NCBI GenBank assembly: GCA_947623455.1
Contig: OX392536.1
Coordinates: 12,767,282-12,831,281 of the forward strand
From: Mimachlamys varia
Lineage: Eukaryota > Mollusca > Bivalvia > Pectinida > Pectinidae
Direction of reading: 5' to 3'
DNA length: 64,000 nucleotides
Below are positions 8,530 through 64,000 of the stretch, in pieces. The notes under the pieces are model-generated. The model saw nothing but the letters and a program-made list of their open reading frames with translations. It was not told the origin of the DNA and did no database searches. Both the position numbers and the translations under genes were made by a program. How positions within the stretch are numbered: position 1 is the stretch's first letter; the number at the start of each line of letters is the position of its first letter.

Positions 8530-8533
8530 TTAA

Positions 8534-10980: not shown

Positions 10981-10984
10981 TTAA

Positions 10985-12075: not shown

Positions 12076-12094
12076 TAGTCGAACTTTGTCTTTA

Positions 12095-29900: not shown

Positions 29901-29979
29901 AACCGGTGTAGTACAAGTACAATGTAGTACGACAACCATGTTTTGGTCCGTAACCGGTGTAGTACAAGTACAATATAGT

Positions 29980-40465: not shown

Positions 40466-40469
40466 TGTC

Positions 40470-41000
40470 TGTCCGTCCGTCCGTAGAAAACATTTTATCC
40501 GGACAACTCCTCGTGCACATATGGACTGATTTCAATGAAACTGCACAGAAATGCTGGAGATAATGCGTCTGCATGCAGTTTTTCTCGTCTAAAATTGTTG
40601 TTACCAAGGTAGACTAGGTAACTATACATTTTGGGAAAAGTTTGTCCACACAACCCCTCATAAACTTTTGAACCGATTCCAGTTGAACTACACAGAAATG
40701 TTAGGGACCATGTGTAGATGTAAATGCAGATTTTTCTGTCCAATGTTTGGTTACCTTGGTAACCAGGTCACGTTACCCAAGTTCTTGTGGAAAACTTAAT
40801 AAGGACAACTCCTCCTAAACTAATGAACCGTTTTCAATAAAACTGCACAATATGATTAAAGGGACAATGTGTAGATCTGCAAGTAGATTTTTTTTTATTA
40901 GAAATGTAGGTTGCCTTTGTAACCAGGTCACTATAAACAGGTTTTTGTTGGAACATTTTGCCCACACAACGACTATTGTGTGCAAGAAATAAACATTTTT
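40470..41000. repeat. (GTCC)n followed by tandem units of about 150 bp
   Basis: Starts with 'gtctgtccgtccgtccgt' at about 40468, then four diverged units marked by 'ggacaactcctc' or 'cacacaacccctc' at about 40504, 40651, 40806 and 40967 (spacing 147, 155 and 161 bp). Each unit also has 'ttaccaaggtag' or 'gtaaccaggtcac' and 'tgcacagaaatg'-like words. The same layout, a GTCC microsatellite followed by units of about 150 bp, occurs at 12042-12615 with different unit sequence. Confidence 0.7.
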
Positions 41001-41803
41001 GTGAATAAATTCTGGCACATTTATAAAATGCTAATGAAGGCTTTTCAAAGCTTTATCAAGCAAGGTACGCCTGAGCAACAGACAGCTACGTGCGACCTTA
41101 TGTTATAAACGAGCAACTTTGGTCCAACCGGTTCAACCGTTAAAACGAATGCATGCTACCGACTTACTTACATTGTACGTCACACAAGTTTTGCAAAATC
41201 GACACATCGATTTTGTTCAAAACAATATATAAATATAGTATTGGTACAATGTGTAAAAACATTTTTTCAATACTTATCCATACATAAGGCCCTAAATGTA
41301 ATGAATATTCCTGTCGATGGACGGTTGGAAAGCCCAACGTGATTTTGAAACAAATGTTTAGAGTTACTGCCCCTGTTGTCAGGTAGCACATCACGGGTTA
41401 TTTGGAATTTGGTTAAGTAAAAAATAAAACGTAGTCCGTTATTGCATGACAATCATACAACGTAATGGGGCGCGCCGATAGTTCAATACAGCCGAGTAGT
41501 GTAGAAACAGAATCACAAGCCAGCTCATAAATGTCACATTTTCTGACGCGTATACGCAATTGAGGAAGAACGATGTGTATACATGATACGTAGGCTCATC
41601 ACTTGACTAGCCCGAAATCGAGGGTCGCTTAATTTCATATTTCTTCATCTTCTAGAATGTGAAGACGATGTTATTGTATGTCGATTTAGACGAGAAACAA
41701 TGCGTGGTTCGAAAGGTTTACCTGAGATAATTACATGTAGGAACCAAATATATACAAGGGATAAGTAAAAACCTAATTTTCACAAGGGAAAAGTATAAAA
41801 CAG
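41001..41803. other. Non-coding stretch, nothing recognised
   Basis: Unique sequence with no supported gene or repeat. Confidence 0.5.
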
Positions 41804-42717
41804 ATCGCACAACGTTACACGATGTGCGGTGGGCGCACGATGGGCAAACGGTGTTTGCACGATGTGCGAACGATGCGATCCTGGGTGATTATGTCAAACG
41901 CACATGTGGGCGCACGATAAACTAACATTGTGCGGTGACAATCGTGGTTGATGTAAATTTAGAAATGGTTTAACAATATATACGGTTTCGCGCTATTTGT
42001 TTTAAATATATTTCTATATTTTAACTATTTTACATAAGCTGATAGTTCTATCTATATATTTCTTAAAATTAGTAATAGTCTTTCTGTAGTTTTTGAAACA
42101 AACCAAATAGACACAACACATATTGACAAGTTCTCATCAAGTAAATATTGCCAGTTTTTACCAAGTTATACACTGCACCTGTACATGGAAAATATATGTA
42201 GATGTCTCTGGCCGGGGCCCTTACAACACTCGCCTAGGTGTGAAAACACAGGGTAAGTGGTGGGGAGTGGAGGGGGTTTTCAAATAACTAATTATAAGAA
42301 TCAAGTTTGTTTTCATAACGGTCGCTCGGTAATGGCTGTCGTAGCGTATCGCCGCACACGGGACAGGTTAAACTCTGGCATGTTATTTACCTATTCTGTT
42401 ACATGTACCTGGTAGCTAAACCCACACTTGGCTGTCTCATGGTCACTGTAATACTGTTTACTGTATATTGTTAAATTGACATAATTCCAATAAATATGAT
42501 GTGAATTTAAATAGTTTTTATGAGGGTTCCATATGTTTTTAATTCCGTAATATGTATCAACCAATTGTACCAAATCGTGCGTGTGTGCGATTCTAATTAT
42601 AATCGCACCTCATAAACGCACGATCGTTAGATCGCCCAGTTGTGCGCACCATGGGCGAACGATGTGTACACGATGTATGCACGATGCACGCACGCAGTTT
42701 TTGGTGCGTTGTGCGAT
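41804..42717. mobile_element. Possible small DNA element with GC-rich subterminal repeats
   Basis: Ends match as an 11-bp inverted repeat, ATCGCACAACG at 41804-41814 and its complement at 42707-42717. Just inside each end is a cluster of 'cacgatg', 'gcgaacgatg' and 'gggcgcacg' words (41815-41945 and 42600-42700), inverted relative to each other. The middle is AT-rich and non-coding. No target duplication was found, so this is only a candidate. Confidence 0.3.
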
Positions 42718-43310
42718 ACCACAACTGTGCATTGGGGGGTAAATAAAAACAAAGTGCTTTTCTTAGTTCGAATTCCTTGCATACTGGACGTGACAAGATC
42801 GAACTAAGCCTACACTGGTTTTTATTTGGACTGGGGTTGTCACAGACACACGAAGTAGGAAGTATTTGCAATGCTATTGTTGTTAGGCTAATCTGTCAAT
42901 GAAACAGGTTTCATTAGTAAGAATTCAAATATTAGTGCATATTGTCACTTTCATGGCTTTCTGTATTGACATAAAACTGACAGTCCTTTAACGTATTTCC
43001 TTTGTAACGTTTGTGTGAAAAACAAGCGTTCATAATTACATGTTTAGCCAGTGTAGCAACTGTGGTTTCATAATACCCTGTAGTACGTACACCTTTAATT
43101 TTCAGTTACATTTTTGAATTATTTGCTAATGCTATTATGTTGGTATTTGGTATTGTACTCATTTTTTATTGCGACTGAGGGTAGTTTGCAGGTCCTCTGT
43201 AATGATTTCTTTGATATTAAAGCTTAAAATAAATCAGTTAAGTGGTATTCTTAGCGCTGTCAGCTCAATCAGTTAAGTGGTATTCTTAGCGCGATTTGTA
43301 TGGTAAAGTG
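42718..43310. other. Non-coding stretch with a short direct duplication
   Basis: Unique sequence; 'atcagttaagtggtattctt' is repeated 33 bp apart at 43235 and 43268, just before the 50-bp array. Confidence 0.5.
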
Positions 43311-43730
43311 TAGACATAAAAGTCATTTGAAACATACACTCTTATATTTGTATTGTTAAGTATATATATAAATCATTTCAGACAAACACTAATGTATTTG
43401 TATTGTTAAGTATATATATAAATCATTTGAGACATACACTCTTGTATTTGTATTGTAAGGTATATACATATTAATCATTTGAGACATACACTCTTGTATT
43501 TGTATTGTAAGGTGTATATATATAAATTATTTGAGACATACACTCTTGTATTTGTATTGTAAAGTATATATATAAATCATTTGAGACATACACTCTTGTA
43601 TTTGTATTGTAAAGTATATATATAAATCATTTCAGACATACACTCTTGTATTTGTACTGTAAGGTGTATATATATAAATCATTTGAGACATACACTCTTG
43701 TATTTGTACTGTAAAGTATATACATATAAT
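43311..43730. repeat. 50-bp tandem array
   Basis: About eight copies of a unit containing 'gacatacactcttgtatttg' and 'gtatatatataaatcattt'. Spacing is 50 bp (43561 to 43611). It lies in the presumed intron about 85 bp upstream of the splice acceptor of the membrane-protein exon. Confidence 0.92.
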
Positions 43731-43789
43731 CGATTGCGAATGAAGTCGAAATGTGACTCTCTCTGGTAGTTACTGATTTGTTTGTTTAA

Positions 43790-43859
43790 TTACGTTGTTA
43801 TTCTTTTCTTACAGACTTGCTTGTCTTTGGTCGGAATATGACCTTGGCCCGGTAAACAA
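43790..43859 (+). promoter_or_regulatory. 3' splice acceptor and short upstream ORF
   Basis: A pyrimidine-rich tract 'gttattcttttcttacag' ends in AG at 43814, a good metazoan 3' splice site, 45 nt before the ATG at 43860. Between them a five-codon ORF (ATG 43838, stop TAA 43853-43855) ends four bases before the main ATG and could dampen its translation. The main ATG has C at -3, a weak context. An upstream exon is implied but not identified. Confidence 0.5.
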
Positions 43860-44225
43860 ATGACGTCAGTCAACAGTACGTTTTCAGAGGAAACTGCTGC
43901 CCGCGTCTCGTTGCTTTGGTTACCACATGCTCTCATAGCTTTCGGGTTCATAAGCTTTCTTGGAATAAACTTCTATTGTTATCACAAGAAATACAAACAA
44001 AGGTATCAACGGAAACTAGAAGTTACCGAAACACGCGAGAGAATGAGAGAACGGCGCCGAATTCTGAACTTAATTCGACTACGTTATGTGGTGAATACGG
44101 AAGTAGCACAAAACGGAGGCGCGAGTTCGGGAGATCACTTGTTTACGACCGTACACGCCCACCCATGTGGATCTACCAGTGTTGACTGTGACCCGTGTGT
44201 AGACGAAAAGATAAGTTCAGTTTGA
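43860..44225 (+). CDS. Predicted 121-residue single-pass membrane protein, unknown function
   Basis: The only host-like coding candidate in the window. The N-terminal 16 residues are polar with a possible N-glycosylation site (N5-S-T). Residues about 17-41 form a hydrophobic helix (LLWLPHALIAFGFISFLG). It is followed by a strongly basic stretch (HKKYKQRYQRK) and a charged, probably helical region (ETRERMRERRRILNLIRLR), then a Cys/His-containing tail. The positive-inside rule predicts the N-terminus outside and the C-terminus in the cytosol. No signal peptide is needed in this topology. The ORF starts 45 nt after a good splice acceptor and ends at TGA 44223-44225; an AATAAA lies near 44805. 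I do not recognise the family. The composition is unlike the surrounding repeats. The assignment as a real gene is inferred; transcript data would settle it. Confidence 0.55.
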   Translation: MTSVNSTFSEETAARVSLLWLPHALIAFGFISFLGINFYCYHKKYKQRYQRKLEVTETRERMRERRRILNLIRLRYVVNTEVAQNGGASSGDHLFTTVHAHPCGSTSVDCDPCVDEKISSV

Positions 44226-47035
44226 GTTAACATAATTGGTGTACACAAATGGGCTAGTCGGTGGGAGGATACAAGATTATTCCGAAACTAGAAATGCTAT
44301 CTTCGATGATACTATTAGTAATATGTGACAGCGAATACTTAATTCGAAGTATTTTATATCGGACATCCCATTGCACTAGAGAAACACTCTTAAAGATGAT
44401 GGACAAACAAAAACCATGTCAAAGCTAAGATATACTGACAGCAAATGACAAATTGTGTGTCCATAAAACAATCAGTTCGGTAACAATGTTTGGATAAGCA
44501 TGTGTAAGCAATCAAGAATGGGAAGGACACGCAGCTCGATGACCATTAGAATTCATTGGAATCAGCCAGATAATTGCCTATCTGCAATCGTTACAATATA
44601 TAATATAAAGAACACTGTCAGAAAGCAAAGGACCGAAGAGTTTCGTAGACTCTGAATTCAAAAGTTTTTAAATCGACCATCCTGACAGAAGAATACAAGT
44701 AAGCGTTTCAAAAGAGCATTGGCGAAGACAAATCCGGATAACGTTCAACCCATAGAATGTTTGTCAGGCAGTCCCTTACTTTTCGTGTAAGGGTCGGGCT
44801 TGACCAATAAATAACCGCCTTACGCAACTACAGTTGGGCGTTCTGAACTTAAAGGCCGTATTAACAACTCCTGCGTGAGACTTCGCTTTTCGCTGCATGT
44901 TACTACTTTTGTAGGACCCTTTACGCTGCATGCTACTACGTGTACTTGGGTAGGACCCTTTTTGCTGATGGCTGTGGAGATATAACACGGCGTAGATGGA
45001 CAATGGAAGGGCAGATAGAACAGAGAATGGCAATGATATTCATCTCTCTTTTGAATGCTGCGATGTCGATCCCGATCATGCGCGATGCTTTGTCATTCAA
45101 TAAGATAGTATGGTATTGGTGACACGAAACTTGCTGAGATTGAAGCAAAACATTCTCCAGGATCGTGTCTCCTCGAGTTTGCCACGCTTCGGGACAGACA
45201 AAGATGAGTCAAGCCCTTCAACTTTAGGATCAGATTACCGGATTTCGATTTTCCTGCTTGAAGGTCTCGTTCTGTCTCGGCCAGGTCTTTAACTGGAATG
45301 ATTTCTCCTAATAATTCTCTCTATTATGGAAGTAAATGCGAATGTTTGGGGACCTGATACCCGGCTTATGCGAAGACAATTTTCGTTCTTTATTATTGGG
45401 GTCTACAGAAATGGCTGTGGCCGGCCGACACACAAGGCGTCAATTCTGAATGCACTCCCGCCTTTTATTCTAATTTTTTTTATTCGAAAAAATCAAACGC
45501 CTTCCTTTCAATCAACATAGTTTAGTTTTTGAGGTATTCTCGACGTCCTGGTAAGTGCGTATCCACTTCGTACCAGGATTCTCGTGGTGTTCCGTCTTTG
45601 TAAAGTTTAAACTTGTCATTGTGGAAGACATTCTTTCATTAAATAAGTCGATTACTGTGACTAGCGATTAGAGACCATGATTTCTGTTTTGTTGTTACAA
45701 CCCTAACAGTGTATACATACATGTATGCTATAATGATTGGGTGAGACATTTACATCGAAAAATAAACGTATGTATTACAGCATTGTGTTCTAGGTGAAGA
45801 TGCTTTGGGGCGAGACAGGAGGATCTCAACCTGAAGGGTAAGATTCTTATGTTGCCAAACACGTGGCTCTGCAACTTCATAATTTTCTTGCCAGGAAATG
45901 CACTGACCATACTTGTATGGAAATATACAATTAAGGACTTCAGTAAAGGTTAATCCCCGATTGATAGCCTCAATTTTGTTCAGACAATGTCCGTAATACG
46001 GGATAGGTCGAAACTGAATTCCACAATAATTGTTTTAGTATCTGACATTATACAATGAGATTACAAGAACATGTAATAATGTACATGTCAGAGACACATG
46101 TATTGTACGGACCAAATGGGTATCACATATTCTGTAAGAGGACTTAGCACACACAATTTTAGATTAAACTAATGTGATGGTTAATTGAAGTAAATAGTAT
46201 ACCATTTGCACAATCGACGTCATGCATAGCATATAGAAGTTAAGTATTAAATGATTCGGAAGTAATTGATTTTATTTCCCTTGGCATATTTCAGAAGCAG
46301 CTATTTAAACTTTTTAAATATTTAGCAGATGAAAAGAAAATGGGTTTCTCTTTCTAAATTGTCGATTTAATGTTTAAACTGGTTAACTTCCTGTTATCTG
46401 ATTTCTATGGACATCAGGCATAGCACATGTGCTAACAAACAAGGGGCTTTATTCGGTATGATGCAGCTATCTATTAGCACACATATGACGTAGATATTAC
46501 ATAACACACATGTGCGAGTATGGTACATCAACTGAACCAACAATATTATTATCAGTCTAACAATATTAACTACTACAAATACCATTCCCTTTTCAGAAAG
46601 CAATAGTATGCCTGATTTGCAGAGTTTTTAGAATAAGAATTGTCCTTAAGAACAGTCATTTATTTATTTATTTATTTATTTGTTTTGCCTAATACCAGAA
46701 TTGAACAAACCATCTAACCACAACTAATAAACATTTATCAAATCAAATTATGATTTGTTGTCACTTTAGCTCTGAACACAATTGAAAATAAAATATTAAA
46801 CCCTAACCTGATGTAGACTGCCCCCAATCCCACAGGAGTACAAGGATTGATCTACCCTTGATCACTACCCCTGTAGGTAACACTTAACAGCGTAGTGTTT
46901 CAGTCGTGTTGGTAGAGTGACAGGTCCCTCTAGCCGAGTGTTTGCAGTGCCTTATGACGACACATCTCTTGACACGAACGATGGAATTGGTTTCTTCGGT
47001 GTAGAACAAATCCTCTCATAAAGTTTCTGTAGGAG
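44226..47035. other. Non-coding stretch with an (ATTT)n microsatellite
   Basis: Probably begins with the 3' UTR of the membrane-protein gene. A short (ATTT)n run lies at about 46655-46682. Many open frames of 60-85 codons overlap on both strands and none shows a domain. No transposon ends are visible to the left of the mariner. Confidence 0.45.
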
Positions 47036-47037
47036 TA

Positions 47038-48365
47038 CGAGGGGTGTTCCATAAATAATGTCATCTGTGCTTTATTTCGCGGAAATCGTGCAATTTATGC
47101 ACAAAACCACCTCGTGTCGATTGAGTGATCACTGGCTCGTGACACAGGTAAATATCTCGTTCACACGTTCACTGGCCTCGGTACAGTGTACATCGTTTCA
47201 TGGCCTATTCGTTAGACTAGACACAAAATGACAGGAAAACAAGCTGAAAATGTTCTTGAAATTAGGGCCTATATAAAAGGTAGGTCATTACTCGGCATAA
47301 AGGCTGTATATATTCACCGCGAGGTGTGTGACATTTATGGGGATGGCTAAATGTCTCACAGGACTGTTTGTAGGTGGGTAGGTAAATTTAGTGCTTGGCA
47401 GCAGCAACTTAAAGATGCTGCTCACCCAGGTCGTCCTGCAACAACTACGACCAAAGGTAACATAGAAAAATATCCTCCAAACTGATGCTCGATTCACCGT
47501 AAGACAATTGGCTCGATTGACAAACTTGTCGTTAGCAAGAGTTTATGCAATTTTGAAGAAACACCTAAAAGTTAGAAAGATAAATGCAAGATGGATACCC
47601 CATTTGTTAACGGATGAGCAATAGAAGACGCGTGTAACAATGGCAAAAAAACTTCTCAAAATGTACCCAAAATAAAGTAAAAAGGCTTTTGATAATATAG
47701 TCACTGGTGATGAGACCTGGGTGTATTATTTTGAACCAAAGCGGAAGGTTGCCAACCGAATATGGGCCACTAAAAATGCTAGACGCCCAAGTATTGCCAA
47801 ACGAATACGAACGGTAAAGAAGGTTTTGTATGCTATTTTTTTCACTAATAAGGGTCCAGCTATTCAAATCCCGGTGCCAAAAGGCAGAACGGTCACAGGC
47901 AAGTTCTATAAAAACGTTGTTCTGAGAAAGTTGAAGAACTACTACAAAAGCCCGCCCCAAAACAGGACTTAAGTATGTCCGACTTTTGCATGATAATGCA
48001 CCCGCTCACAAGGCACGTATTGTGACTGACTTTTTGGAGTCAGAGAAGGTTACCGTCCTTCCGCACCCTCCGTATTCGCCAGACTTGGCCCCCTGCGACT
48101 GTTTTCTCTTTCCAAAACTTAAATATCATTTATCTGGAAGGAGATACAATTCCAGAAATGCCCTTGGATCTGCTGTTTATCAGTGTCTGATGGGAGTACC
48201 TATTGAAGAGTATGAAAAATGCTTCCAAAAATGGATTGACCGACTAAAAAGGTGTGTTCTGGCTGGCGGAGAGTATTTTGAAGGGCAGCGCAAATCAAAA
48301 TGAACAAAAGCACTTCCGCTATATGAGCAGCGATGCAAGTGACATTATTTTTGGAACACCCCTCG
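47038..48365 (+). mobile_element. Mariner-family DNA transposon, complete ends, decayed gene
   Basis: 1,328 bp bounded by inverted repeats that begin CGAGGGGTGTTCC and match for 25 of the first 26 bp. TA dinucleotides at 47036-47037 and 48366-48367 are the expected target duplication. Size, ends and the encoded DD34D transposase are all typical of mariner. Confidence 0.93.
47228..48303 (+). pseudogene. Mariner transposase, DD34D type, broken
   Basis: Starts MTGKQAENVLEIRAYIKG at 47228 and can be followed to the stop at 48301-48303 through three frames. Breaks are an in-frame stop at 47348-47350, a frameshift at about 47460-47475, stops at 47622-47624 and 47673-47675, and a second frameshift at about 47950-47970. 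The N-terminal part has the helix-turn-helix region (MSHRTVCRWVGKF, HPGRPATTT). The catalytic acidic residues survive: D in GDETWVYYFEP (47709), D in HDNAPAH (47992) and D in SPDLAPCDCF (48097). The last two are separated by 34 residues, the mariner signature. The copy cannot make a functional enzyme but its ends could still be mobilised by a related transposase. Confidence 0.92.
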
Positions 48366-48489
48366 TACTAGTGGTAACCGTTTTCTTCACATCTCCTGAT
48401 TTAGTCGACGTATAAGTATTTGGTTTGAACGCTTGCATATGTCAGCGGTTTCTCTGATACACACCCTGTGGTGTTCTGACTAGATATGA

Positions 48490-50990
48490 TCATATATTTA
48501 TATCTGCATGTTCCACTACACCAGAGTTTTTCATTGTCGAGGTTCAACGTGACTTAATCTTCGACATCCAGATCAGGTAAAGGTTTAATGTCGTTTCTTC
48601 GATTGAAATAATATGCACAACGCTGTGTGTACTCACAGTCATTTCTATTAATATCCACTGGGTTTGGCCATTTTGGGACCGATTTCTCTGGTACGACAAC
48701 TGGTACTGTTGTACGAAACATGATCAGTTAACACAGATTTGCGCCTGTTGCTTTGACCTGTGTGGCAAGGTACGCCATCAGCGCTGCGAATATGTCGTCT
48801 TGAGATAGTATTCTTTTTGGCTATATATACCCCACTTTCCGCCTCACCGTTACTTTGGAGATAATTTGGTTTGGAAAAGTTTTGTTGAAGTCCACAGTTC
48901 TTTGCAAACTTTCTGAACTCGTGTGACGTAAATTGTGTAGTATTGTCTGATACGAATTTCTCTTTAACACCCCAATGTGCAAAAATGATCTTTAGTCTAA
49001 TAATAACCTGGTTACTTGCGATATTTTTAAGGTGAACAATCTCTATGCATCGTGAGTAATAATCTGTCTGGATGAGGTTAAGTTTCCCTTGCTGCAAATC
49101 AAACAATTCAGCAACCCCTTTCTCCCAGAGTCGTAATGGAAGCTCGGTGACCTTCAATGGTCCCTTACGTTGTATTGATTTGTTTGCTTGACAAATTGGA
49201 CAAGAGGTAATTTTATCCTTAATGCTTCTGGTGGTTCCTGGCCACCAAACTGTAGTTTTCGCTATGTCATAACACTTCACTATTCTCATATGACCTTCAC
49301 GTATACATTTAATGATCTCATTCCTCAGTTCATCTTGAATGGTGACTCGTTCTTTGAACAAGAGTACGCCATTACACACTGACAGTTCATTCTGTGATAG
49401 GAAGTACTCGCATGCTATTTCATCTACGCCATTTGAGTTGCTTGGCCATCCATATTTGGTATATACAAAAGCTTTTTGAACACTTGCGTCTTGTAATTGA
49501 GCTTCTCTAATTTGCTCGAGTCTTACATCCGAAATGGATTGTAGGGACTCCACTAAATTGGTGTAAAGTTCCACTTCATCATTTGAACTGTTATCACGAA
49601 TCTTCATTAGACTCCGCGAAAGCCTATCCTGGCATATGTTCCGCGACAGAACTGAACCTCTGTAATCGCATCAAGAGACGCTGATATCGCAATGGAGTTT
49701 CGTCGAGATCTTGCGTATTGTTCACATGTATTAGAGGTTTATAATTTGTCAATAGTTTAAAGCTCTCCAACCAAAATAGATACTGTTCAACTCCCCACGT
49801 GCATACACTGAAGCCAGACACTCTTTTTCTATTGCGCTACTTGGTTTCTGGCGGTATGATGGTGCGCGAACAAAACGCAACCGGCTTGAGTTCGCCGTCA
49901 TCACCTTTCTGATATAATGCTGCCCTTTTGCTGAATCTGCTTGCGTCTGCGCTCACTGCAGTTTCACGCTTCGCGTCATAAATATAAAACTTGGAGTTCC
50001 CGTCAACTACCGCATAACTTCACCGAACGCGTGTTCTTGCATAGGAGTCCATGCTCGCACTTTGTCTGATTTGAGTAAATCAGTCATGGGTTTCGCTAGT
50101 ACTACAAAGACCTTATAGGAAGTGTCCTAAGTAGTTGATCATTCCTATGATGCATCGCAACCCTGCGACGTCCTTCGGAGCATACAGCTTTCGTATTGCC
50201 TCTATCATTTTAGGTATTGGTGAAATTCCGTCATAACTAATCACGTGAACAAAGTATTCGATACCCTACTTTCCATATTCGCACTTTACTGGGTTTAGAT
50301 TTAGGCCCCCTTGGCTGTTATTCTGTACATCCATCACATTTTTAAGACGTTCGGCATGCTCCTTAACATCCTTGCCATATATCAGAGTGCCATCTACATT
50401 TTTATTGCACGTGTATGATGGCTACCACACCAAGAATCTAAAGATCATCTTTCTCTGGAAAATCCCCAGGGCTGTTGTGATACCGAATGGGACGCGGCGA
50501 AAGCAATAACACCCAAATGGTGGAATAAAGTTCGTCTTGATGTAGCGGTATTTGGTAGAAACCGCTGCTAGTATCTACTTTGAAAAGACTTTAGCACCAA
50601 CGAGCTGGGGAAAATATCGTCGAAACTAGGCAACATAAACACATGTTTTGTATCTCACGCTTTACCCCTTCGTTCAGTTTCTTCAGATCGACACAGATTC
50701 TGACATCACCGTTCTTTTTAACTACTGGTAATATTGGTGCCCACCAATTTGTAGGTTCTGTTATTCTCTTTATTATTACTTCTCTAGATACATGTACATT
50801 GTCGAGCAGTGGAAATGGAACATGTCTTGGTGACACAGTATGGTTAAAATTGTCTCTCTGTTTATTTAATATACACCGGACCATAATTGAGTAGACCAGC
50901 TAGAGGAATACTGATGAGTTGTTGAATTTCACGCAATTCTGGTGTCAAGTCCATATTTCATCGCTGCGTCGCGACAAAGTAGATTGTGTG
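48490..50990 (-). pseudogene. Ty3/Gypsy retrotransposon pol remnant (RT, RNase H, integrase)
   Basis: On the minus strand the usual Gypsy order is readable. RT runs from about 50884: PRHVPFPLLDNV, EPTNWWAPILPVVKKNG and ICVDLKKLN, then in other frames SSGFYQIPL and SYDGISPIPKMIEAIRKLY. The YVDD region near 50400 is disrupted. RNase H is at about 50000-49624: WGVEQYLFWLESFKLLTN and QDLDETPLRYQRLLMRLQRF. Integrase forms a 319-codon open frame at 49607-48648: a zinc-binding region (EGHMRIVKC, VWWPG, CPICQAN) and a core with DYYSRCIEI, VSDNTTQF and NGEAES. C-terminal remnants (FNRRNDIKPLPDLDVED) reach about 48490. Gag, protease and LTRs are not identified. Many frameshifts and stops show it is inactive. 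Confidence 0.88.
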
Positions 50991-51420
50991 TGTTTTGTCC
51001 TGCCACTACGTAGCAAAAGAGAATATCAAAGCGTCAAGAAAATCATAATCCAAACTCAAAATCAATTAAACTAGAGGCAAAATATAAACAAAGGAAAGTT
51101 TTTACACAAAGATCATCTTAAATTTTTTTTAGAGAACACAGAAGCTTTAACAGAAACTTAATCCGAACTCAAATTGATTAATCTAAGGGCAAAATAAGAA
51201 CAAAGGACAGATTTACATGGAGACCCTTGATGGAGTACGAGAGAATAAGGTTAGGTGTTCCGGAAGAGTAAGCGTGTTCTGCTTAATCGACGACACTCGT
51301 CATGAAATTAGAATCTTTTTCACATCCAAAAGTTCTCGAAATAAGAACCGAGTCATCATTTTCAATCACAACAAGTAAACACTCTAATAAGCATACTTAA
51401 AAACGTCAATTGCATATATA
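50991..51420 (-). mobile_element. Fragment of the Penelope-like family 3' region
   Basis: Sequence shared with 3320-3560 in the same orientation: 'gatttacatggagac', 'aggtgttccggaagagtaag', 'atcgacgac', 'cacatccaa', 'cacaacaagtaaacac'. At 3320-3560 this lies just downstream of the RT remnant on the minus strand, so here it is an isolated minus-strand 3' end. Its left half contains a diverged internal duplication about 130 bp apart ('aatccaaactcaaa' and 'aatccgaactcaaa'). Confidence 0.7.
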
Positions 51421-51795
51421 ATTCAGGGAAGTAAGGCCCCCATAGTGTTGTCTATGTGGATAGTTTTAAGTTGCACTCTCGTTAAATCGTAATCTTTATG
51501 TTATACCGTATGCCGGATATAGAAACGTAATCCTTATGTTGGACCGTATTTTGTATACAACGTGTATATATCAAGAGGCCTAGAGGGCCTGTATCGCTCA
51601 CCCGAATACAGATGTATCAAAACCATCAGGGACAAAACATGGACAGTATCCTGTCATTCCTTAGGAAGAAGTAAGATGTTAAAGAAATTGCTTTCTCTCA
51701 TCAAAGGATACATCAAACCAAATATGGCACAAATGCTTTTAAAGTAGAATTCGCTTCACTTCCCCGGCCTTGTTGACCTCATCTCTCAGGCCCCT
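51421..51795. other. Junction region with a dispersed-repeat end
   Basis: Non-coding. The phrase 'aggcctagagggcctgtatc' at about 51574, with a short palindromic core, resembles the start of an abundant dispersed repeat in bivalve genomes; this is from memory and not verified. Confidence 0.35.
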
Positions 51796-52495
51796 TTGAG
51801 TGTATACCTCCATTTACATCTTGAACACCCTCTCCTTAAAAATGTCTTTTCGGTCAAAACATTTGATTTTTCCACCCTGTACACTACCATAACGCATACA
51901 AAATTGAAGGAACGTCTTCGATCACTTGTTATGAGAGCTTTCTTTTCCATGAAAGGCGGACGACGATACAATTATATGGTTGCGAGCTATTTTTGAGCAT
52001 ACTTTATGAAAAACACAACAAAAGCTTAGAGGAAATATACTGAAGAATGATTGAATTCCTGGTCGACAATAGTTCGGAGGAAAGATTTTCCAGCAGACTG
52101 TTGGCATTCCCATGGGAACAAACTGTGCCCCACTCTTAGCTGACTTGTTTTTGTTTTCATACGAGGTTGAATTTGTGGAAGGGCTAATCAGGACAGGTAA
52201 CAAAAACCTTGCCAAATCTTTAAATTTCACTTTCAGAGATATCAACAATGTGTTGTTTATAAACAACAAGACGTTTGCTGACCATGTCGATCGTATATAC
52301 CCTTCTGAACTTGAAATAAAGGACACAACAGACTCTTCTTCACCAGCTGCTTACCTCGATCTCTACTTAAACTACGAACAACATGGACATCTTACTACTA
52401 AGCTATACGATAAACGTGATTTCAATTTTCCGATCGTGAAGTTTCCATTTCTTGATAGTAACATCCCTGCTTCTCCAACCTACGGTTGATTCGAT
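51796..52495 (+). pseudogene. Penelope-like reverse transcriptase remnant, plus strand
   Basis: Reads in two frames. At 51850-51996: FSTLYTTITHTKLKERL. At 52112-52489: MGTNCAPLLADLFLFSYE, then FRDINNVLFINNKTF where the RT active box should carry two Asp, then YPSELEIKDTTDSSSPAA, AYLDLYLNYEQHG, LTTKLYDKRDFNFPIVKFP and FLDSNIPASPTYG. The active-site Asp pair is read as Asn-Asn, which would abolish polymerisation. Between the two parts there are stops and a frame change. After TYG a small deletion removes a few codons and shifts the frame (a trace of LIRYSRA follows). Same family as 3300-4137 but opposite strand. The N-terminus and any GIY-YIG endonuclease are absent. Confidence 0.75.
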
Positions 52496-54389
52496 ATTCT
52501 AGGGCTTTATACTTAATATCATTGGAAAACTAGTATTCTCTACAAACTTCTATCTTCTAGAATTCTCTAAACCACTGTGATAAACACAAACAAACATGAC
52601 CATAAACAACTTATTACGTAAACAGAATATTACAGAATCTACCAGAAAACCTTGATAAACAAACAAAACAGCATGGCCTGGTATTCGCTACATAAATCTA
52701 GAAAAATCCAGAAAACTCTGCCACACTATCATAATATATTATGTAACTTCAAGATCATCTCTCTAGCAGACGACAACAATGCCGAGCCTCCAATGCCAGG
52801 AGTTCGATTCGATCAAGTGGAACAATTCATACAACAGTTCCGATGTAACGTTAAAAAATGACCCAGGTGGAAAACTACCCACCGTTGAGTTCTACGGCGG
52901 GTCTTTTTTCTTCACTGAACGAATTACAGAAATATTGGGGTCATTTTTTCTATATATAGCCGTGTAAGATTTCTACTGTAGAATAACGAACTCGGGTAAC
53001 TTTTATCACGTAGAATAATGACCCCGGGTAGTTTTTATTTTTATGTCGGGTCACTTTTTCACGTTACACTGACAAAACATTATATGCTCACTGCAAAATC
53101 TTATATTTTCACTGCTCATCACTGCAAAATTATAATCCTATGATTTAGTTAACGCTTCGGTATTCCCTAATTTATTTTATTATTATCACCGCAAAATAAT
53201 GAATCTGTTTGGTATTGATGTCACATTGATCTATGCCTCCTTCGAAGAACAGGGGGTATATATATATATATTGGTTTGCATTAGTCGGTCGGTAGACCAC
53301 ACCTTGTTGATAAATATCTTAAAAACCCTTTCCTTGATTTCTTATTATATTTTATATGTTGGTTAGTCATAGGAAGTAGATGACCCCCTAAACATTTTAA
53401 AATCAAATGGTCAAAGGGGTTTAATGCAAACACATTTAAAACAATCATTTTCAGCACAACAAAGGTGTACCAAATGTGATAACATTGGTCCCTCACTATA
53501 ACAATAACTGACCTATCTACTCGTCTGTTTCCATGGAAAGAAATAATCATTTGGAAAAACACAATTACTTTTCCGGGATGCAACATACCGCAAAATTGCT
53601 TTTCCGGAATACCACATATAGCGGGGGATAATGCCACGTTTTACGGCTCTTTGTTAATTGTGAGATAAAAGAACGATATTGACCAATCATTTGACATATT
53701 TAGTGAGATCATATCACGTCTCGAAACATTGGCATATCGTGGATTTGTACCCTGTCGATGCCATTCTTAATGGTTAGTTGTTCTAAACAAAGGATAACTA
53801 CCGTGCTGAATTAAAACACCTTCCTCACTCACCATGAAGTTCTGAAACGATAAATACACGAAAACACACAATAAAATGTCTCGTTTGGAGTGAAGTCCGA
53901 CCGAAATAGGCACTTCCACTTTCAAATACTATGTTTTCTTTATCAACAAAAAAAAACATATTGGATGTATTTATGCTAAGTCAGTACTGGGAAAGGTTGA
54001 TAAAGACCTACACTAGTTTGGTATATTGAATCTATATACTGGACAAGGTGATCATATCGAATAAATTGATGACCCATAATCAACGACGCATCAAAATAAA
54101 TTTGGTTGAAATCCAACATAGCATGCGGTTAAAGAAGAGTTTTAAAGCTAATTCAGTCACCCCCTCCCCCATTTAGGCCCCGCCTCTTACCCCTAGGTGT
54201 TGAATCAAAATTCAGAATTTAAGGAATGATTGCCTCAACCCAATGATCAAATAGTCCAAAGGTTAAATCCCCAAGGCATTTAGGAGGAGTAGCATTTAGG
54301 AGTACCATTTCGAAGGAAAAGTTAACATACGGAGGACGGCGCATGACGACGGACGAAGTACGATGACATTAACCAGTAAAATCAAAAGT
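52496..54389. other. Non-coding stretch, probable dispersed repeats
   Basis: No gene seen. At 52855-53070 the words 'atgacccaggtgg', 'ggggtcattttttc' and 'tgaccccgggtagttttta' occur in both orientations, suggesting the ends of a small inverted-repeat element. A (TA)n run is near 53260. At 54310-54370 'gacgacggacgaagtacgat' resembles a common molluscan dispersed repeat; this is from memory. Confidence 0.4.
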
Positions 54390-55095
54390 ACTGACGGATG
54401 CGTTACTCGGATGTTTGGACATGGATTGAAGGAGGCGTTACTCGGATGTTTGGACATGGTACTGAAGGAGGCGTTACGCGGATGTTTGGACATGGTACTG
54501 AAGGAGGCGTTACTCGGATGTTTGGACATGGTACTGACGGAGGCGTTACTCGGATGTTTGGACATGGTACTGAAGGAGGCGTTACTCGGATGTTTGGAAT
54601 GGTCCTGAAGGAGGCGTTACTCGGATGTTTGGACATGGTACTGAAGGACGCGTTACTCGGATGTTTGGACATGGTACTGAAGGAGGCGTTACTCGGATGT
54701 TTGGACATGGTACTGACGGATGCGTTACTCGGATGTTTGGACATGGTACTGAAGGAGGCGTTACTCGGATGTTTGACATGGTACTGAAGGAGGCGTTACT
54801 CGGATGTTTGGACATGGTACTGAAGGAGGCGTTACTCGGATGTTTGGACATGGTACTGAAGGAGGCGTTACTCGGATGTTTGGACATGGTACTGAAGGAG
54901 GCGTTACTTGGATGTTTGGACATGGTACTGAAGGAGGCGTTACTCGGATGTTTGGACATGGTACTGAAGGATGCGTTACTCGGATGTTTGGACATGGTAA
55001 AAGTACTGGAAGTACTGAAGGAGATGTTACTCGGATGTTTAGACATGGTAAAAGTACTGAAGGAGGCGTTACCCGGATGTTTGGACATTGTAAAA
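54390..55095. repeat. 36-bp tandem array
   Basis: About 19 copies of a unit containing 'ggcgttactcggatgtttgg' and 'acatggtactgaagga', length 36 bp, so frames stay open. Single-base deletions at about 54599 and 54775 shift the frames, and the last two copies have extended spacers ('gtaaaagtactgg'). Confidence 0.95.
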
Positions 55096-58000
55096 GAATG
55101 AAAGGTGCACTTTTTTTTAAAAATGCAAACTGGCTGTAAAAAATTATCAGGTCCCTGCGTTCACTGTGCCACTTTGTATCACCACTCTGATCGGCCAGTT
55201 TCTACGATTAAGATCAAAGGGACAATAATGCATTAAGTAACAATAACATTAAGTTCATTGAATAACGTATATGATTTTGGTATATTTGAATTGAAGTAAA
55301 GTATAAAGTTCTGTGGCTTAGTTGTCGGACAAAAAAAATCAAAGTAATACAATAACTGAAAACGATCATTATTGTGAAGTTATTTTAAAAGATTAAAGTT
55401 TAAGATATAACAGACTTTTTGGTTGGATCATTTAAAGTGAACTTTCACATTAAAGGTGATATTTTGTTAATTAATTTGATTAAACGTATACTTTCCCATT
55501 TACATCATAAAAATAATATTTTTTTTTATTGAGCATCATAATAGAGAAACTCTCTATTCGTGTATTTCTATTTTCTTAAATTTAATATTCCCGGCGGTTC
55601 TCAGGTAAAACATGATAAGGCAACTTCACAGCAATGTTTATTCAGTCTTTCTTTTGTCTCACCGCAAATTTCGACATATTAATTTATTCTGAGTCAAGAT
55701 ATGATAAACGTTTCATCACAGATAAATATTTAAAGCAATATCCTTTTTGAGAATCGAGCTTGAATTACCGGTATATTCATTGTTTGGTACCGCGCCTATC
55801 TTTGTCACATGTGTGTGAGTGTTCGCCCGATATTTCCTGCTTTAGCTAATACAAACATAACCCATTCAAGTGTTGCTGATTACGATACATCTAATCGATT
55901 ATTAACTAATTTACAACATACAAACTCTATGTTATCGGAAGTTACTTTAAGGAAGGAAAGTTTCACCTCACTTTGACTGTCTCGGCGTTTGTCAGAACCA
56001 ATCGGAAATATTCTACTTTCGTTTCTAGATACAAATATATCCACAGGCGGGAAATTTAACTTCGGGACTACCGATTGAAAATTACAATTTTGTCGCAATT
56101 AACAGTAAGAGCCGTTTTTATCAATACGACTTTTGTCATGATTAGCAGCAAAAGGGTTTTAATCAGATGTGAAGTTTCGACAATCACTATCGCTGCTTTA
56201 TATACAGTGTATATTTCAAAGTCTGTGGTTGGTAGCGAACATTTATACGTCAGCAATATTGGATGGGTTTTACATTTACCAGAGAGTGTAACGGTAAACC
56301 GGTCTTCCTTATACATGTATGGTCATTCTGCATGATTCTATAACGTTCAATCCAAAACGTTTAAATTGAACGGAGTTAGATTTAATCATATGGTACATGT
56401 AAGTTTATGTAAGATTCATGTAAGAAGTATTCCGCTTGTCCGTATTTAGCCAGCTGTCCGACAGTATTCTGAACTAAGCATCAGATACACTAAAGTTGTT
56501 TCCCTTATTTAGAGTATTTGTCACGTTCGTATAAATGTTTGTATTTGTTTTCATGTATATTTGTGTCATGTATGTTCGTTGTTCCTTGTGAGTGACCGTA
56601 GTTTTGGAGAGAGTGACCGGAAATGAGTAAGTCCAAGCGGGACATTTTGAGGCGACAGAAATTTCGCTAGTTTATTAAGGAGGCTCGACCGTTTCGCAAT
56701 TAACCGCTAGATTTCGTTAAAACTTTCATATGTTGACTATGCTACCAGGTAGAGATGATTTTGTGAAAATCTAAGCATTCCTATGACTTGTTTCATTTTT
56801 GGTAAAAAACACCAAAAAATGATTTTTCTCAAAATTTGATGTTTTTTCTATTTTTTTTTTCTTGTGAATGTTGTTGAAAATTACAATCATACAATAAAAT
56901 AAAAAAAGAAATCAATAGCTACCTCAAAAATATTTCATTTGTGGAAAAATGGACAAAGCGATTGTTACAAAGTGTGTTATTTTTATATCTAGCGGACAAA
57001 TTTCAGTATTCTCATTCAAATTATTTACATGAGCAGGCACAGATAACAGGCTGTGGTGAGTATTTCTTCACTATATATATGTATTTCTTTGTCTGTTTTT
57101 GTAGCCCATTTGTGGATAAAATATCTATGTAAACAACTGTTTGTTCGTGCGGTTCAGTCATGCGTTTCATTGTATATGATGTAGTGTTAGAGACAGTATC
57201 TGTAAATATCAATATTGTTGATTACATATATCAATATGAATGTATGTCTATTTGTAAGTCCAGGTATTAGAACGCATAATTATGTTATGTTTATAGTAAA
57301 GTGTGTTCAGGTGAGTGCGTATGCGTGTGTGAAAAAGTATGGAAGCCATGAGTGGCCAAATCTAACTTTAAATTGTTATATAAATAATGTTCTTGTTACT
57401 ATTTTCAAAGCTTCATGTGACGGTTACGAGCACCAACTATCTCTATCAGGGCCTTTGAGTTGCGGCAACCGGACCGACACCAGTCAAGGTCAGCCTACAA
57501 CAGAGAAACAAGTCAAGAGCATGTCTATGGTGACTTGAGGAAAGAAGCACTACCGTGGCCATCAGCCGACACAGCTCTGACTTGTCGGAGGCTTCAGTGT
57601 GTATGTCTTTGTTACCAGTAGATGGTGACTATTGTGTATTACGCCAATATATATGATATCCTAGGTGGATTTCATTGTATTTTGTGGTAATTGGTGTCCT
57701 GTGTGGAACCTGTGATCCTTTGTGGAACTTGATGTCCTTTGAGGACATTAGTCAGACCTATCTGACTATCATTTGCTTGTCATTGTGGAGGAAGAGGAGA
57801 GATATGGACGCTATCGCAACACTGTAACATTCTCATGTTGTTTAAGAGACTCTTAGTGTATATTTGATATTGTGTGAAACCCAGTATGTTTGCGAGTATG
57901 ATTTGTGTATATTGTAAATAAATTGTAAATTGTACTTAAGTCTTGTTTATATTTTCCGTATAACTACTCAACGCTCATCCTACGTTACAGTAATAACGGA

Positions 58001-58129
58001 GATTACCGCTAGGTGATTCAAACTCCGTAGAACGAGCTGTTTTTATGTTACCTATTTCATCAACAGAAAAGTCCTTTAAAAAGTTTTGAATTTGGCGGTA
58101 AAATTGTACAATGTCCCACTCGGAACTCA
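55096..58129. other. Non-coding stretch, no supported gene
   Basis: AT-rich unique sequence. A 107-codon open frame at 57215-57538 has no recognised domain, and paired antisense frames at 56068-56335 look accidental. The region ending near 57950 with aataaattgtaaattg could contain a processed 3' end or LTR-like sequence, but no direct terminal repeats were found. Confidence 0.4.
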
Positions 58130-58138
58130 TCAAATAAC

Positions 58139-59370
58139 GGAAGCATGAAGTTGGTTCCTAGTTCCTAGTTCCGTGTTCCGTTTAATAAACGGAACTAGGG
58201 ACTAGACCCTAGTTCTGTTTAACATAAACGGAACTGGGAACCAGACCCGAGTTCCGTTTAACATAAACGGAACTGGGAACCAGACCCGAGTTCCGTTTAA
58301 CCTTAAACGGAACTGGGACGTTTACCAGTTGATCTAACAAAACAGATACGTGCGATGATCATATATTTCATATTTAAACCGAACACAGGAATCGAACCCA
58401 GACCCTTTCAGACAAACAATAAGACCTAGAAAAGCATTCTTAAATGAATTTCTGTTATACGGAACTCATATCCAAACTCCAGTTCCGTTTAACCTTAAAC
58501 GGAACTGGGAACCAGACCCGAGTTCCGTTTAACCTTAAACGGAACTGGGACGTTTAACAGTTGATCTAGCAAAACATATACGTACGATGATCATATATTT
58601 CATACTTAAACCAAACACAGAAATCGAACCCAGACCCTTTCAGACAAACAATAAGACCTAGAAAAGCATTCTTAAATGTATTTCTGTTATACGGAACTCA
58701 CATCCAAACTCCAGTTCCGTTTAACCTTAAACGGAACTGGGAACCAGACCCGAGTTCCGTTTAACCTTAAACGGAACTGGGACGTTTAACAGTTGATCTT
58801 ACAAAACAGATACGTTCGATGATCATATATTTCATACTTTAACCAAACACAGGAATCGAACCCAGACCCTTTCAGACAAACAATAAGACTTAGAAAAGCA
58901 TTCTTAAATGAATTTCTGTTATACGGAACTCACATCCAAACTCCAGTTCCGTTTAACCTTAAACGGAACTGGGAACCAGACCCGAGTTCCGTTTAACCTT
59001 AAACGGAACTGGGACGTTTAACAGTTGATCTAGCAAAACATATACGTACGATGATCATATATTTCATACTTAAACCAAACACAGGAATCGAACATAATGG
59101 AAACCACAACATTAAAAAAAGACAATAAGACGTTTATAGTCTTGGTAAATGAATTTTTCTTGAACGGAGTTGACATCCAAATTCCAGTTACGTTTTACCA
59201 TAAACAGAACTAGGAATCAGAACCCAGTTCCGTTAAACATGAACGTATATAGTTTGATTTCACTGTCTTTCTCACAAAACAAAGAAGTACGATGGTCATA
59301 TTAATACTCGTACCTAAAACAAAACACAGGAATTGAGCGCAGAGCCTTTCAAACGAATAACAAGATGTTT
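58139..59370 (-). repeat. Left inverted arm: about five units of about 233 bp
   Basis: Units read 'ggaactgggaaccagacccg', 'gttccgtttaaccttaaacg', 'gatgatcatatatttcat', 'aggaatcgaacccagaccc' and 'gcattcttaaatgaatttct', the reverse complement of the right arm. The outermost 180 bp are short palindromic fragments only. The unit nearest the core (59190-59370) is strongly diverged, while the outer units are nearly identical. Confidence 0.92.
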
Positions 59371-60115
59371 ACATCCTTTGACGTTACCCCTGGGGGAGGG
59401 CTTGAAGTTGACTATAGTTTATGTAGGAAAGTGACACTTTTTGGTATATTGGATATTATTCATACTTTATTTGAATTCTATCCTGGATATGTCAGTTCAG
59501 TATTGGAAAAAGTTTGTCATGTATTGCATGGCCCGTACATGTCCGGATTTCCATCTTTACTGGCATCCACCATCGCCCATTGGGTAGCGTGGCCAATCCG
59601 CCTCTCATGTCAGCCTATTCGGCATTTTCTGGGGTAACTCCAGCCCCGCGATACTTGGGGTTTGGTCTCTCTCTGAACTATGATTTTTGCTTCGTGGACA
59701 GTCACTATTGATCTCCGAATCTACGAGTGCTGGCTACTTAGCTAACACTCGCGGCAAGTTGCTTGACGAAAGGAAATTATTCAGCAGTTCTTAACTCAAT
59801 ATATGGCTACCTGTTTGTGTGGAAGAATGTTTATTCCTTTGACTACAAAGATGGTTGAATGAACTGTTACATTTTTCGAGGTATGTAGGGAAAACTACTA
59901 AAAAGAAAAAATTTAACGTGACTGTCGCGCTAGAAAGGCGGCTAGAAAATGACCCGTGTACACCGATACACTTACACATACCGCACGTGCTACCTGTACC
60001 TATACCGCCAATCCGATTGATTAAGAACACTCGGTAACGTCCGTATCGAACCGATAAGACAAATTATTCCCGCTATTCTCCGAACCGCGGGAATATATTA
60101 TACATTGTACCTTAA
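59371..60115. other. Unique core of the foldback element
   Basis: Non-repetitive sequence between the two arms. A 90-codon open frame at 59365-59637 straddles the edge and has no recognised domain; two overlapping antisense frames at 59791-60037 are unlikely to be coding. I find no transposase motif here. Confidence 0.6.
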
Positions 60116-63100
60116 TCTATGGTCTGGTTCCCATGTCTCTTTAAGGAACAACTGGAGTTTGCATGACAGTTCTGTCAAAAAAATCCTTGAAAAAGTCCTG
60201 GGTTGTCTTATTTATTTGTCTTAAGATATTATCGGTTCGATTTCTGTACTGCATTGCGTTTGCAACTTGGATAGGGATAACCAAAGAATGTGTTCATCAT
60301 AAACGGAACTAAAGTCGGGTTCCAAGTTCCCTTTAAGATTAACGTAACTGCAGTTTGGATGTCAGTTCCGTTTCAAAGAAAGTCATTTAAAGAGGCTATG
60401 TACAGTGTGTGAATGGTTGTATGTTCGATTCCTACGCTTGATTGGAATTTACATATGATGGCCATACTTAATTCGTTTTGGGAGGTAGACAGGGAAAAGT
60501 AACCGTATACGCTTAGCTTAAACTAAACTGGGGTTTGTTTCCTAGTTCCGTTTCACGAAAAAAGTAACTGGAGTTTGGATGTCAGTTCCGTCTGATGAAA
60601 GCTGTAATAGTATCTGAAAGGCTATGGTTTCGAATCATGTGAATAAATTATGATCATCGCACTTCTATGGTTTGCTATATTTACAGGGTAAATAAACCGT
60701 AAACATTAAGCTTAAACGGAACTGGGGTCTGATTCCTAGGCCCGTTTACAGTAAAACATAACGGGAGTTTGAATGTCAGATCCGTATAACGGAAATTCTT
60801 TTATGAAGACTGCAACAGTCGTATTGTTTGTTTAAAAGACTCTGGGTTCGATTTCCTATATCAGATTTAGATATAAAGATGATCATAATACTTATATGTT
60901 TTGCTAGATTGATAGGAAAAACAAACCGTATACCTTATGTTAAACGGAACTCGGGTCTGGTTCCAAGTTCCGTATAACGTTAAACGTAACTGGAGTTTGG
61001 ATATCACATCGGTACAACAGAAATTCATTAATGGATATTGTAATAGTCTTATTGGTTGCTTTGGAATGCTCTGGGATCGATTCACACGTTAGATTTACAC
61101 ATAAAGATGATCATCGTACATATGTTTTGCTAGATTGATAGGAAAAACATATCGTATACGTTTTCGTTAAACGGAACTCGGGTCTGGTTCCCAGTTCCGT
61201 TTAAGGTTAAACGTAACTTGGGTTGGGATGTGAGTTCCGTTTAACAGAACTTCATTTAAGAATGCTGTTTTGGTCTTTTGTTTGTTTGTAAAGCTCTGTG
61301 TTCGATTCCTGTGTTTGGTTTAGGTATATATATATGATCATTGCACGAATATGTTTTGCTAGATTAATTTAGGAAAGAAACCGTATACATTTATGTTAAA
61401 CGTAACTCGGGTCTGGTTCCCAGTTCCGTTTAAGATTAAACGTAACTCGGGTCTGGTTCCCAGTTCCGTTTAAGGTTAAACGGAACTGGAGTTTGGATGT
61501 GAGTTCCGTATAACAGAAATTCATTTAAGAATGCTTTTCTAAGTCTTAGTGTTTGTCTGAAAGGGTCTGGGTTCGATTCCTGTGTTTGGTTTAAGTATGA
61601 AATATATGATCATCGTAAGTATATGTTTTGCTAGATCAACTGTTAAACGTCCCAGTTCCGTTTAAGGTTAAACGGAACTCGGGTCTGGTTCCCAGTTCCA
61701 TTTAAGGTTAAACGGAACTGGAGTTTGGATGTGAGTTCCGTATAACAGAAATTCATTTAAGAATGCTTTTCTAAGTCTTATTGTTTGTCTGAAAGGGTCT
61801 GGGTTCGATTCCTGTGTTTGGTTTAAGTATGAAATATATGATCATCGTACGTATATGTTTTGCTAGATCAACTGTTAAACGTCCCAGTTCCATTTAAGGT
61901 TAAACGGAACTCGGGTCTGGTTCCCAGTTCCGTTTAAGGTTAAACGTAACTTGGGTTGGGATGTGAGTTCCGTTTAACAGAACTTCATTTAAGAATGCTG
62001 TTTTGGTCTTTTTGTTTGTTTGTAAAGCTCTGTGTTCGATTCCTGTGTTTGGTTTAGGTATATATATATGATCATTGCACGAATATGTTTTGCTAGATTA
62101 ATTTAGGAAAGAAACCGTATACATTTATGTTAAACGTAACTCGGATCTGGTTCCCAGTTCCGTTTAGGATTAAACGTAACTCGGGTCTGGTTCCCAGTTC
62201 CGTTTAAGGTTAAACGGAACTGGAGTTTGGATGTGAGTTCCGTATAACAGAAATTCATTTAAGAATGCTTTTCTAAGTCTTAGTGTTTGTCTGAAAGGGT
62301 CTGGGTTCGATTCCTGTGTTTGGTTTAAGTATGAAATATATGATCATCGTAAGTATATGTTTTGCTAGATCAACTGTTAAACGTCCCAGTTCCGTTTAAG
62401 GTTAAACGGAACTCGGGTCTGGTTCCCAGTTCCGTTTAAGGTTAAACGGAACTGGAGTTTGGATGTGAGTTCCGTATAACAGAAATTCATTTAAGAATGC
62501 TTTTCTAAGTCTTATTGTTTGTCTGAAAGGGTCTGGGTTCGATTCCTGTGTTTGGTTTAAGTATGAAATATATGATCATCGTACGTATATGTTTTGCTAG
62601 ATCAACTGTTAAACGTCCCAGTTCCGTTTAAGGTTAAACGGAACTCGGGTCTGGTTCCCAGTTCCGTTTAAGGTTAAACGGAACTGGAGTTTGGATGTGA
62701 GTTCCGTATAACAGAAATTCATTTAAGAATGCTTTTCTAAGTCTTATTGTTTGTCTGAAAGGGTCTGGGTTCGATTCCTGTGTTTGGTTTAAGTATGAAA
62801 TATATGATCATCGTACGTATATGTTTTGCTAGATCAACTGTTAAACGTCCCAGTTCCGTTTAAGGTTAAACGGAACTCGGGTCTGGTTCCCAGTTCCGTT
62901 TAAGGTTAAACGTAACTTGGGTTGGGATGTGAGTTCCGTTTAACAGAACTTCATTTAAGAATGCTGTTTTGGTCTTTTTGTTTGTTTGTAAAGCTCTGTG
63001 TTCGATTCCTGTGTTTGGTTTAGGTATATATATATGATCATTGCACGAATATGTTTTGCTAGATTAATTTAGGAAAAAAAACGTATACATTTATGTTAAA

Positions 63101-63986
63101 CGTAACTCGGGTCTGGTTCCCAGTTCCGTTTAAGATTAAACGTAACTCGGGTCTGGTTCCCAGTTCCGTTTAAGGTTAAACGGAACTGGAGTTTGGATGT
63201 GAGTTCCGTATAACAGAAATTCATTTAAGAATGCTTTTCTAAGTCTTAGTGTTTGTCTGAAAGGGTCTGGGTTCGATTCCTGTGTTTGGTTTAAGTATGA
63301 AATATATGATCATCGTAAGTATATGTTTTGCTAGATCAACTGTTAAACGTCCCAGTTCCGTTTAAGGTTAAACGGAACTCGGGTCTGGTTCCCAGTTCCG
63401 TTTAAGGTTAAACGGAACTGGAGTTTGAATGTGAGTTCCGTATAACAGAAATTCATTTAAGAATGCTTTTCTAAGTCTTATTGTTTGTCTGAAAGGGTCT
63501 GGGTTCGATTCCTGTGTTTGGTTTGAGTATGAAATATATGATCATCGTACGTATATGTTTTGCTAGATCAACTGTTAAACGTCCCAGTTCCGTTTAAGAT
63601 TAAACGGAACTCGGATCTGGTTCCCAGTTCCGTTTAAGGTTAAACGGAACTGGAGTTTGGATGTGAGTTCCGTATAACAGAAATTCATTTAAGAATGCTT
63701 TTCTAAGTCTTATTGTTTGTCTGAAAGGGTCTGGGTTCGATTTCTGTGTTTGGTTTAAGTATGAAATATATGATCATCGTACGTATATGTTTTGCTAGAT
63801 CAACTTTTAAACGTCCCAGTTCCGTTTAAGGTTAAACGGAACTCGGGTCTGGTTCCCAGTTTCGTTTATGTTAAACGGAACTCGGGTCTGGTTCCCAGTT
63901 CCGTTTATGTTAAACGGAACTAGGGTCTGGTTCCTAGTTCCGTTTATTGAACGGAACTAGGAACTAGGAACCAACTTCATGCTTCC
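60116..63986 (+). repeat. Right inverted arm: about 16 units of about 233 bp
   Basis: Unit starts such as 'ctagatcaactgttaaacgt' are 232 bp apart (61631, 61863; 62365, 62597, 62829). A second unit type, with 'acttgggttgggatgtgag' and 'ttagattaatttaggaaa', recurs at 61217, 61950 and 62916, giving higher-order periods of 733 and 966 bp, i.e. three or four units. Each main unit contains two hairpins (GTTCCGTTTAA, two bases, TTAAACGGAAC) and a GGTTCGATTCC word. Units at 60116-61100 are diverged; those to the right are almost identical. Confidence 0.93.
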
Positions 63987-64000
63987 TCAAATAACAAGTA

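Follow-up and report, generated by a model that had tools for sequence, protein, structure and literature searches.

A foldback-type transposon with inverted arms of 232-bp tandem units in the scallop Mimachlamys varia

Introduction

Foldback elements carry long inverted arms built from tandem repeats, an anatomy typified by FB/NOF of Drosophila melanogaster, which also has a 9-bp target-site duplication. One end of the window, the whole 64,000-nt stretch of Mimachlamys varia DNA analyzed here, holds two tandem-repeat arrays facing each other across a short core. Is this structure a transposon, what kind of transposase would move it, and how did its arms acquire their present form? A sequence-only reading had proposed a complete, undescribed foldback-type transposon, and we compare its claims with our results below.

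Results

The structure is bounded by perfect inverted ends and an exact 9-bp duplication. The element proper occupies positions 58139-63986 (5,848 bp); the span first proposed, 58130-63995, captures a real structure but is wider than the element itself. When the termini are compared with each other, they are perfect inverted repeats over 36 bp, with GGAAGCATGAAG ends, and TCAAATAAC lies directly outside both of them, as in foldback-type (FB-like) transposons with terminal inverted repeats (TIRs). Both observations had been made in the sequence-only reading and hold without a mismatch. The duplication is exactly 9 bp and cannot be extended because the bases on either side differ; the window extends 5 bases past the right copy. 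With base frequencies taken from 2.1 kb on the left side, the probability that two specified 9-mers agree is 8.6e-6. The 20-bp end occurs in the window only at the two termini even with up to three mismatches permitted (0.02 occurrences expected by chance). These are the marks left by cut-and-paste insertion at a cut staggered by 9 bp, and the intact duplication makes a recent insertion plausible. The nine bases abutting the left duplication, CGGAACTCA (58121-58129), recur within the 232-bp units (e.g., near 58692), possibly by chance or through a target preference. The parts of the element are as follows.

58130-58138, no strand: left 9-bp target-site duplication TCAAATAAC (direct sequence comparison)
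58139-58318, plus strand: left terminal domain, 36-bp perfect inverted end and ladder of 39-bp hairpin modules (TRF, hairpins, 36-bp run)
58319-59014, minus strand: left arm, young 232-bp units L1-L3, 96.6-98.7% identical to the outer consensus (BLAST, unit alignment)
59015-59365, minus strand: left arm, old diverged units L4 (84%) and partial L5 (73%) (BLAST)
59366-60120, no strand: unique core, about 755 bp, no Pfam domain and no transposase (Pfam search, BLAST)
60121-61382, plus strand: right arm, old diverged units R14 (partial) to R9, 60-84% (BLAST, unit alignment)
61383-63813, plus strand: right arm, young 232-bp units R8-R0, eight at 97.8-100% (unit alignment)
Within 61383-63813, plus strand: divergent subtype R6 and R2b, 87.8% to the consensus (unit alignment)
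63814-63986, minus strand: right terminal domain, 39-bp hairpin-module ladder followed by the perfect 36-bp inverted end (TRF, folding)
63987-63995, no strand: right 9-bp target-site duplication TCAAATAAC (direct sequence comparison)

From either terminus inward the order is the same: the 36-bp end leads into 39-bp modules arranged as a ladder (58171-58318, TRF period 39, and 63814-63958), which in turn gives way to tandem 232-bp units. The longest gapless inverted match between the arms pairs 58161-59014 with 63118-63971 (854 nt, 96% complementary, 4,103 nt between them), in a register shifted by 7 bp relative to the perfect ends. With one unit as query against the window, BLAST located complete or partial units at 58319-59365 and from about 60121 to 63813, plus shorter matches within the terminal ladders; sequence outside the element gave no match. 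Inverted arms built up from tandem repeats are the structural mark of the foldback-type (FB-like) TIR class, and with the exact ends, the 9-bp duplication and the 854-nt match they bear out the proposed foldback architecture and completeness. The inverted tandem arms proposed earlier are real, but their unit is 232 bp rather than about 233 bp, and the arms are unequal: about 1.2 kb on the left, with four units and one partial, and about 3.9 kb on the right, with about 16 units of which the innermost is partial. FB arm repeats measure 10, 20, and 31 bp, against 232 bp here, a comparison by description only.

Two 40-bp modules, each an inverted repeat in its own right (AAACGGAACT...AGTTCCGTTT), are present in every young unit. 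A degenerate pattern of the module matches the plus strand of the element 40 times and the rest of the window not once. Exact 10-bp stems with loops of 10-18 bases number 55 in the element; 20 base shuffles gave 1 at the most, and the 5,848 bp preceding the element on the left contain none. Folding as single-stranded DNA surpasses shuffled sequence in all three stretches evaluated, one unit stretch and both ends (z of -6.6, -6.8, and -9.3).

The units differ in apparent age along the arms. We defined 22 units by hand from the BLAST matches and aligned 21 of them after dropping one short piece (R8x, 61383-61417); the inner neighbors R14p/R13, R13/R12, and R12/R11 share a few bases, and the alignment leaves out the 40-bp stretches 62112-62151 and 63078-63117 as well as the terminal ladders. 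Near the ends, 11 of the 13 outer units match the consensus at 96.6-100% (three on the left, eight on the right), while those adjacent to the core reach 60-84% in the right arm and 73-84% in the left. The diverged set comprises L4, R9, R10, R11, R12, and R13, and L5p, R14p, R6, and R2b belong neither to this set nor to the outer consensus. In the right arm, units farther from the right end show lower identity to the outer consensus (Spearman -0.77, P = 0.0005, n = 16 units); the left arm alone gives no significant gradient (Spearman -0.70, P = 0.19, n = 5 units). The gradient is not smooth, because R6 and R2b (88%), a subtype related to R9 (96%), interrupt the homogeneity of the outer right arm. 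Self-comparison of the right arm also gives a match offset by 966 bp (61418-62942 versus 62384-63907, about 1.5 kb, 98.2% identity), the pattern that recent duplication of a four-unit block would leave.

We considered a tRNA or SINE origin of the unit and rejected it. The motif GGTTCGATTCC, which we take to be identical to a form of the tRNA B box, is exact in 9 of the 11 young units, in both arms (e.g., 62768-62778), and differs by one base in R0 and L2; our motif script under-reports inexact matches, and the L2 variant was found by reading the sequence. ARAGORN predicts no tRNA gene in the window, and the 50 Rfam matches listed for 58000-64000 at E <= 5 include no tRNA model; all fall below their gathering scores, and most are microRNA models placed on hairpins. 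The B-box-like motif is also not exceptionally conserved in the diverged units, where it ranks 25th among 222 sequence windows.

The core has no recognizable coding capacity for transposition. With stops read as X, no Pfam family matches any of the six frames of 59094-60650 at E <= 1, including THAP, PHD finger, and MULE DDE domains, and the copy seen here is therefore non-autonomous. This agrees with the earlier description of a core without a transposase, but the core is smaller than it appears, since diverged inner units reach to about 59365 on one side and about 60121 on the other. The 110-amino-acid open reading frame (ORF) at 59305-59634 has no homolog at E <= 1 in the protein collection, and a spurious 57-amino-acid ORF of the unit, used as a probe of predicted proteins, yielded no candidate. 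Elsewhere in the window, six-frame searches of 7900-16000 and 40000-58138 found no MULE, P, or hAT transposase at E <= 0.01, the matches being reverse-transcriptase, mariner-type, and Gypsy-type only; positions 1-7900 and 16000-40000 were scanned as single ORFs, and the arms were covered in six frames within 59094-60650.

A 1,152-amino-acid ORF of a non-LTR retrotransposon (4457-7915, minus strand) carries an endonuclease, a reverse transcriptase, and a PHD match just under the Pfam cutoff. Among its relatives (best 120 of 260 listed), two are from Pinctada imbricata, the better with 53% identity over 92% of the query; the other named relatives among the matches listed are one from Branchiostoma and two from bacterial metagenome-assembled genomes (Sedimenticola and Candidatus Thiodiazotropha), the latter two presumably bivalve-host contamination. 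Taken by themselves, these relatives make a mollusc, probably a bivalve, the likely source of the window. A second, broken reverse-transcriptase fragment lies in two overlapping frames at about 15467-16539 (plus strand), at the end of the 37-bp minisatellite listed below. Broken remains of a mariner-like transposase (about 47290-48162, plus strand; HTH_48, Transposase_1, and DDE_3 in different frames) are followed by a Gypsy-type fragment (about 48650-50000, minus strand; RNase H, integrase zinc-binding, and integrase core domains in different frames). The stretches 52306-52486 and 3778-3964 are related in inverted orientation (84-88%) across 48 kb, and the ORF at 52073-52486, which has no Pfam match, presumably resembles a Penelope-like reverse transcriptase. 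The largest of the window's many minisatellites spans 11 kb (24823-35802; 51-bp unit, about 229 copies by TRF), and further ones are listed here.

229-2722: minisatellite, 44/132 bp
14121-15532: minisatellite, 37 bp
17574-19116: minisatellite, 31/64 bp
19955-21529: minisatellite, 18 bp
37203-39554: minisatellite, 24 bp
54388-54999: minisatellite, 36 bp

Discussion

We regard the transposon nature of the element as nearly certain. Inverted satellite arrays joined by an inversion, a palindromic duplication, or a misassembly could in principle mimic a foldback structure: both arms are tandem arrays, the right one bears signs of recent array amplification, and other minisatellites abound in the window. 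Such an origin is nonetheless very improbable, as the terminal sequence common to the two arms breaks off at an identical base in both, each time directly beside the same 9-bp word, and this terminal sequence is found nowhere else in the window. The arms also differ in length and in unit sequence, unlike those of an assembly palindrome.

The kind of transposase is a separate question, and the length of the duplication bears on it. Target-site duplications usually measure 8 bp for P, 7 bp for Galileo, 8 bp for hAT, and 8-9 bp for Merlin elements, mostly different from the 9 bp found here, which lies outside the 7-8 bp of the P superfamily to which Galileo belongs. MULE duplications measure 8-11 bp, and 9 bp is the length listed for Rehavkus and several MULE groups (PMC6446971). 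It is also the commonest length in Tm1, a Mutator/Foldback element of root-knot nematodes with a transposase similar to those of Mutator's Phantom subclass (PMC3169594). The element shares with Rehavkus both the 9-bp duplication and a tandem repeat within or beside the inverted termini, although we do not claim membership in that group. Mobilization by another superfamily (P/Galileo-like, Merlin, or hAT), with 9 bp as an outlier or a family trait, draws some support from Galileo, a P-superfamily element of Drosophila with very long, internally repetitive inverted ends (PMC3688188), and from the view that foldback structure may evolve in different lineages (PMC4079207). The core contains no transposase that would decide the matter, and given the duplication lengths we consider another superfamily unlikely. 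From duplication length and architecture, the superfamily is likely Mutator, and the element is probably a complete, non-autonomous foldback-type TIR transposon mobilized in trans by a Mutator (MULE)/Rehavkus-type transposase.

Under this preferred reading of a Mutator-type foldback element, the ends would be recognized by a Mutator (MULE)/Rehavkus-group DDE transposase whose gene would lie at another place in the host genome. The tandem repeats in the ends of Galileo have been shown to be multiple transposase-binding sites (PMC3688188), and by analogy the repeated hairpin modules may serve as such sites here. The excised element would be pasted into a staggered 9-bp cut whose repair would leave the duplication. 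The arms may then grow and homogenize in their outer parts through repeated unequal exchange and through conversion between repeats and between arms, and inner units that escape these processes would be stranded as old units beside the core. Unequal exchange and conversion confined to the outer parts appear to be the simplest account of the arm ages.

The architecture itself has close precedents. Tetris of Drosophila virilis, for which a Mutator affiliation has been suggested, is likewise built from an outer flanking domain, repeats of about 220 bp in tandem, an inner domain, and a non-coding middle; its duplications are 8-10 bp long, and no transposase was found for it (PMC4079207). By description rather than by sequence, our element differs from Tetris in its 232-bp unit, paired 40-bp hairpins, short terminal domain with a 39-bp ladder, and host. 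Rehavkus-1_TC of Tribolium castaneum, 9.5 kb long, has inverted termini with short tandem arrays of a 164-bp monomer, repeated mostly five and eight times (PMC10218199), and is larger than the 5,848-bp element described here, again compared by description only. The Rehavkus group also has a minisatellite before its 3' end and transposases with a PHD finger, a domain that gave no match in the core of our copy but that an autonomous relative could carry, and its listed hosts are arthropods and annelids (PMC6446971). Tm1 shares composite inverted ends with tandem motifs, but these are about 14 bp long rather than 232 bp, with asymmetric 7-bp terminal motifs, and its copies are both non-coding and coding, some encoding a transposase (PMC3169594). 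Galileo differs in its THAP/P-type transposase (PMC3688188).

The claim that the family is undescribed fares unevenly: the architecture is well described in Tetris, Rehavkus-1_TC, Tm1, and Galileo, while the sequence gave only a chance match in virus and prokaryote contigs and no counterpart in the molluscan literature listed, which is a weak test. An 18-base end matched one viral contig, and we take this as chance because identity stops at the pattern and does not continue inward. Exact matching found neither the module pattern in viral and prokaryote genome contigs nor the 20-base end in prokaryote genome contigs, collections in which absence says little. MULEs occur in all mollusc genomes analyzed in a survey of bivalve transposons, the available text of which does not contain the word Rehavkus (PMC10294476). 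No molluscan foldback element appeared among the literature matches listed, a search that lay outside most subscription literature and does not establish absence from print, and the bivalve satellite literature examined uses "foldback" only in a reference list, for Tetris. The element looks like a new family of an already known foldback kind. More tentatively, and with considerable doubt, it could represent a novel molluscan lineage of Rehavkus-/Mutator-type foldback elements in which the arms would be growing satellite nurseries, the 40-bp hairpin pairs repeated transposase-binding sites, and the right arm a generator of 966-bp higher-order blocks, with units homogenized across both arms near the ends and the oldest kept as a fossil record beside the core.

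The locus provides a structurally complete, satellite-bearing foldback copy in a mollusc; Rehavkus has been placed only in arthropods and annelids in the portions of PMC6446971 and PMC10218199 drawn on here. In other respects a pattern already known gains a new host. Since its units are graded in age, the element makes it testable whether growth of foldback arms takes place in their outer portions and whether such arms seed satellite DNA.
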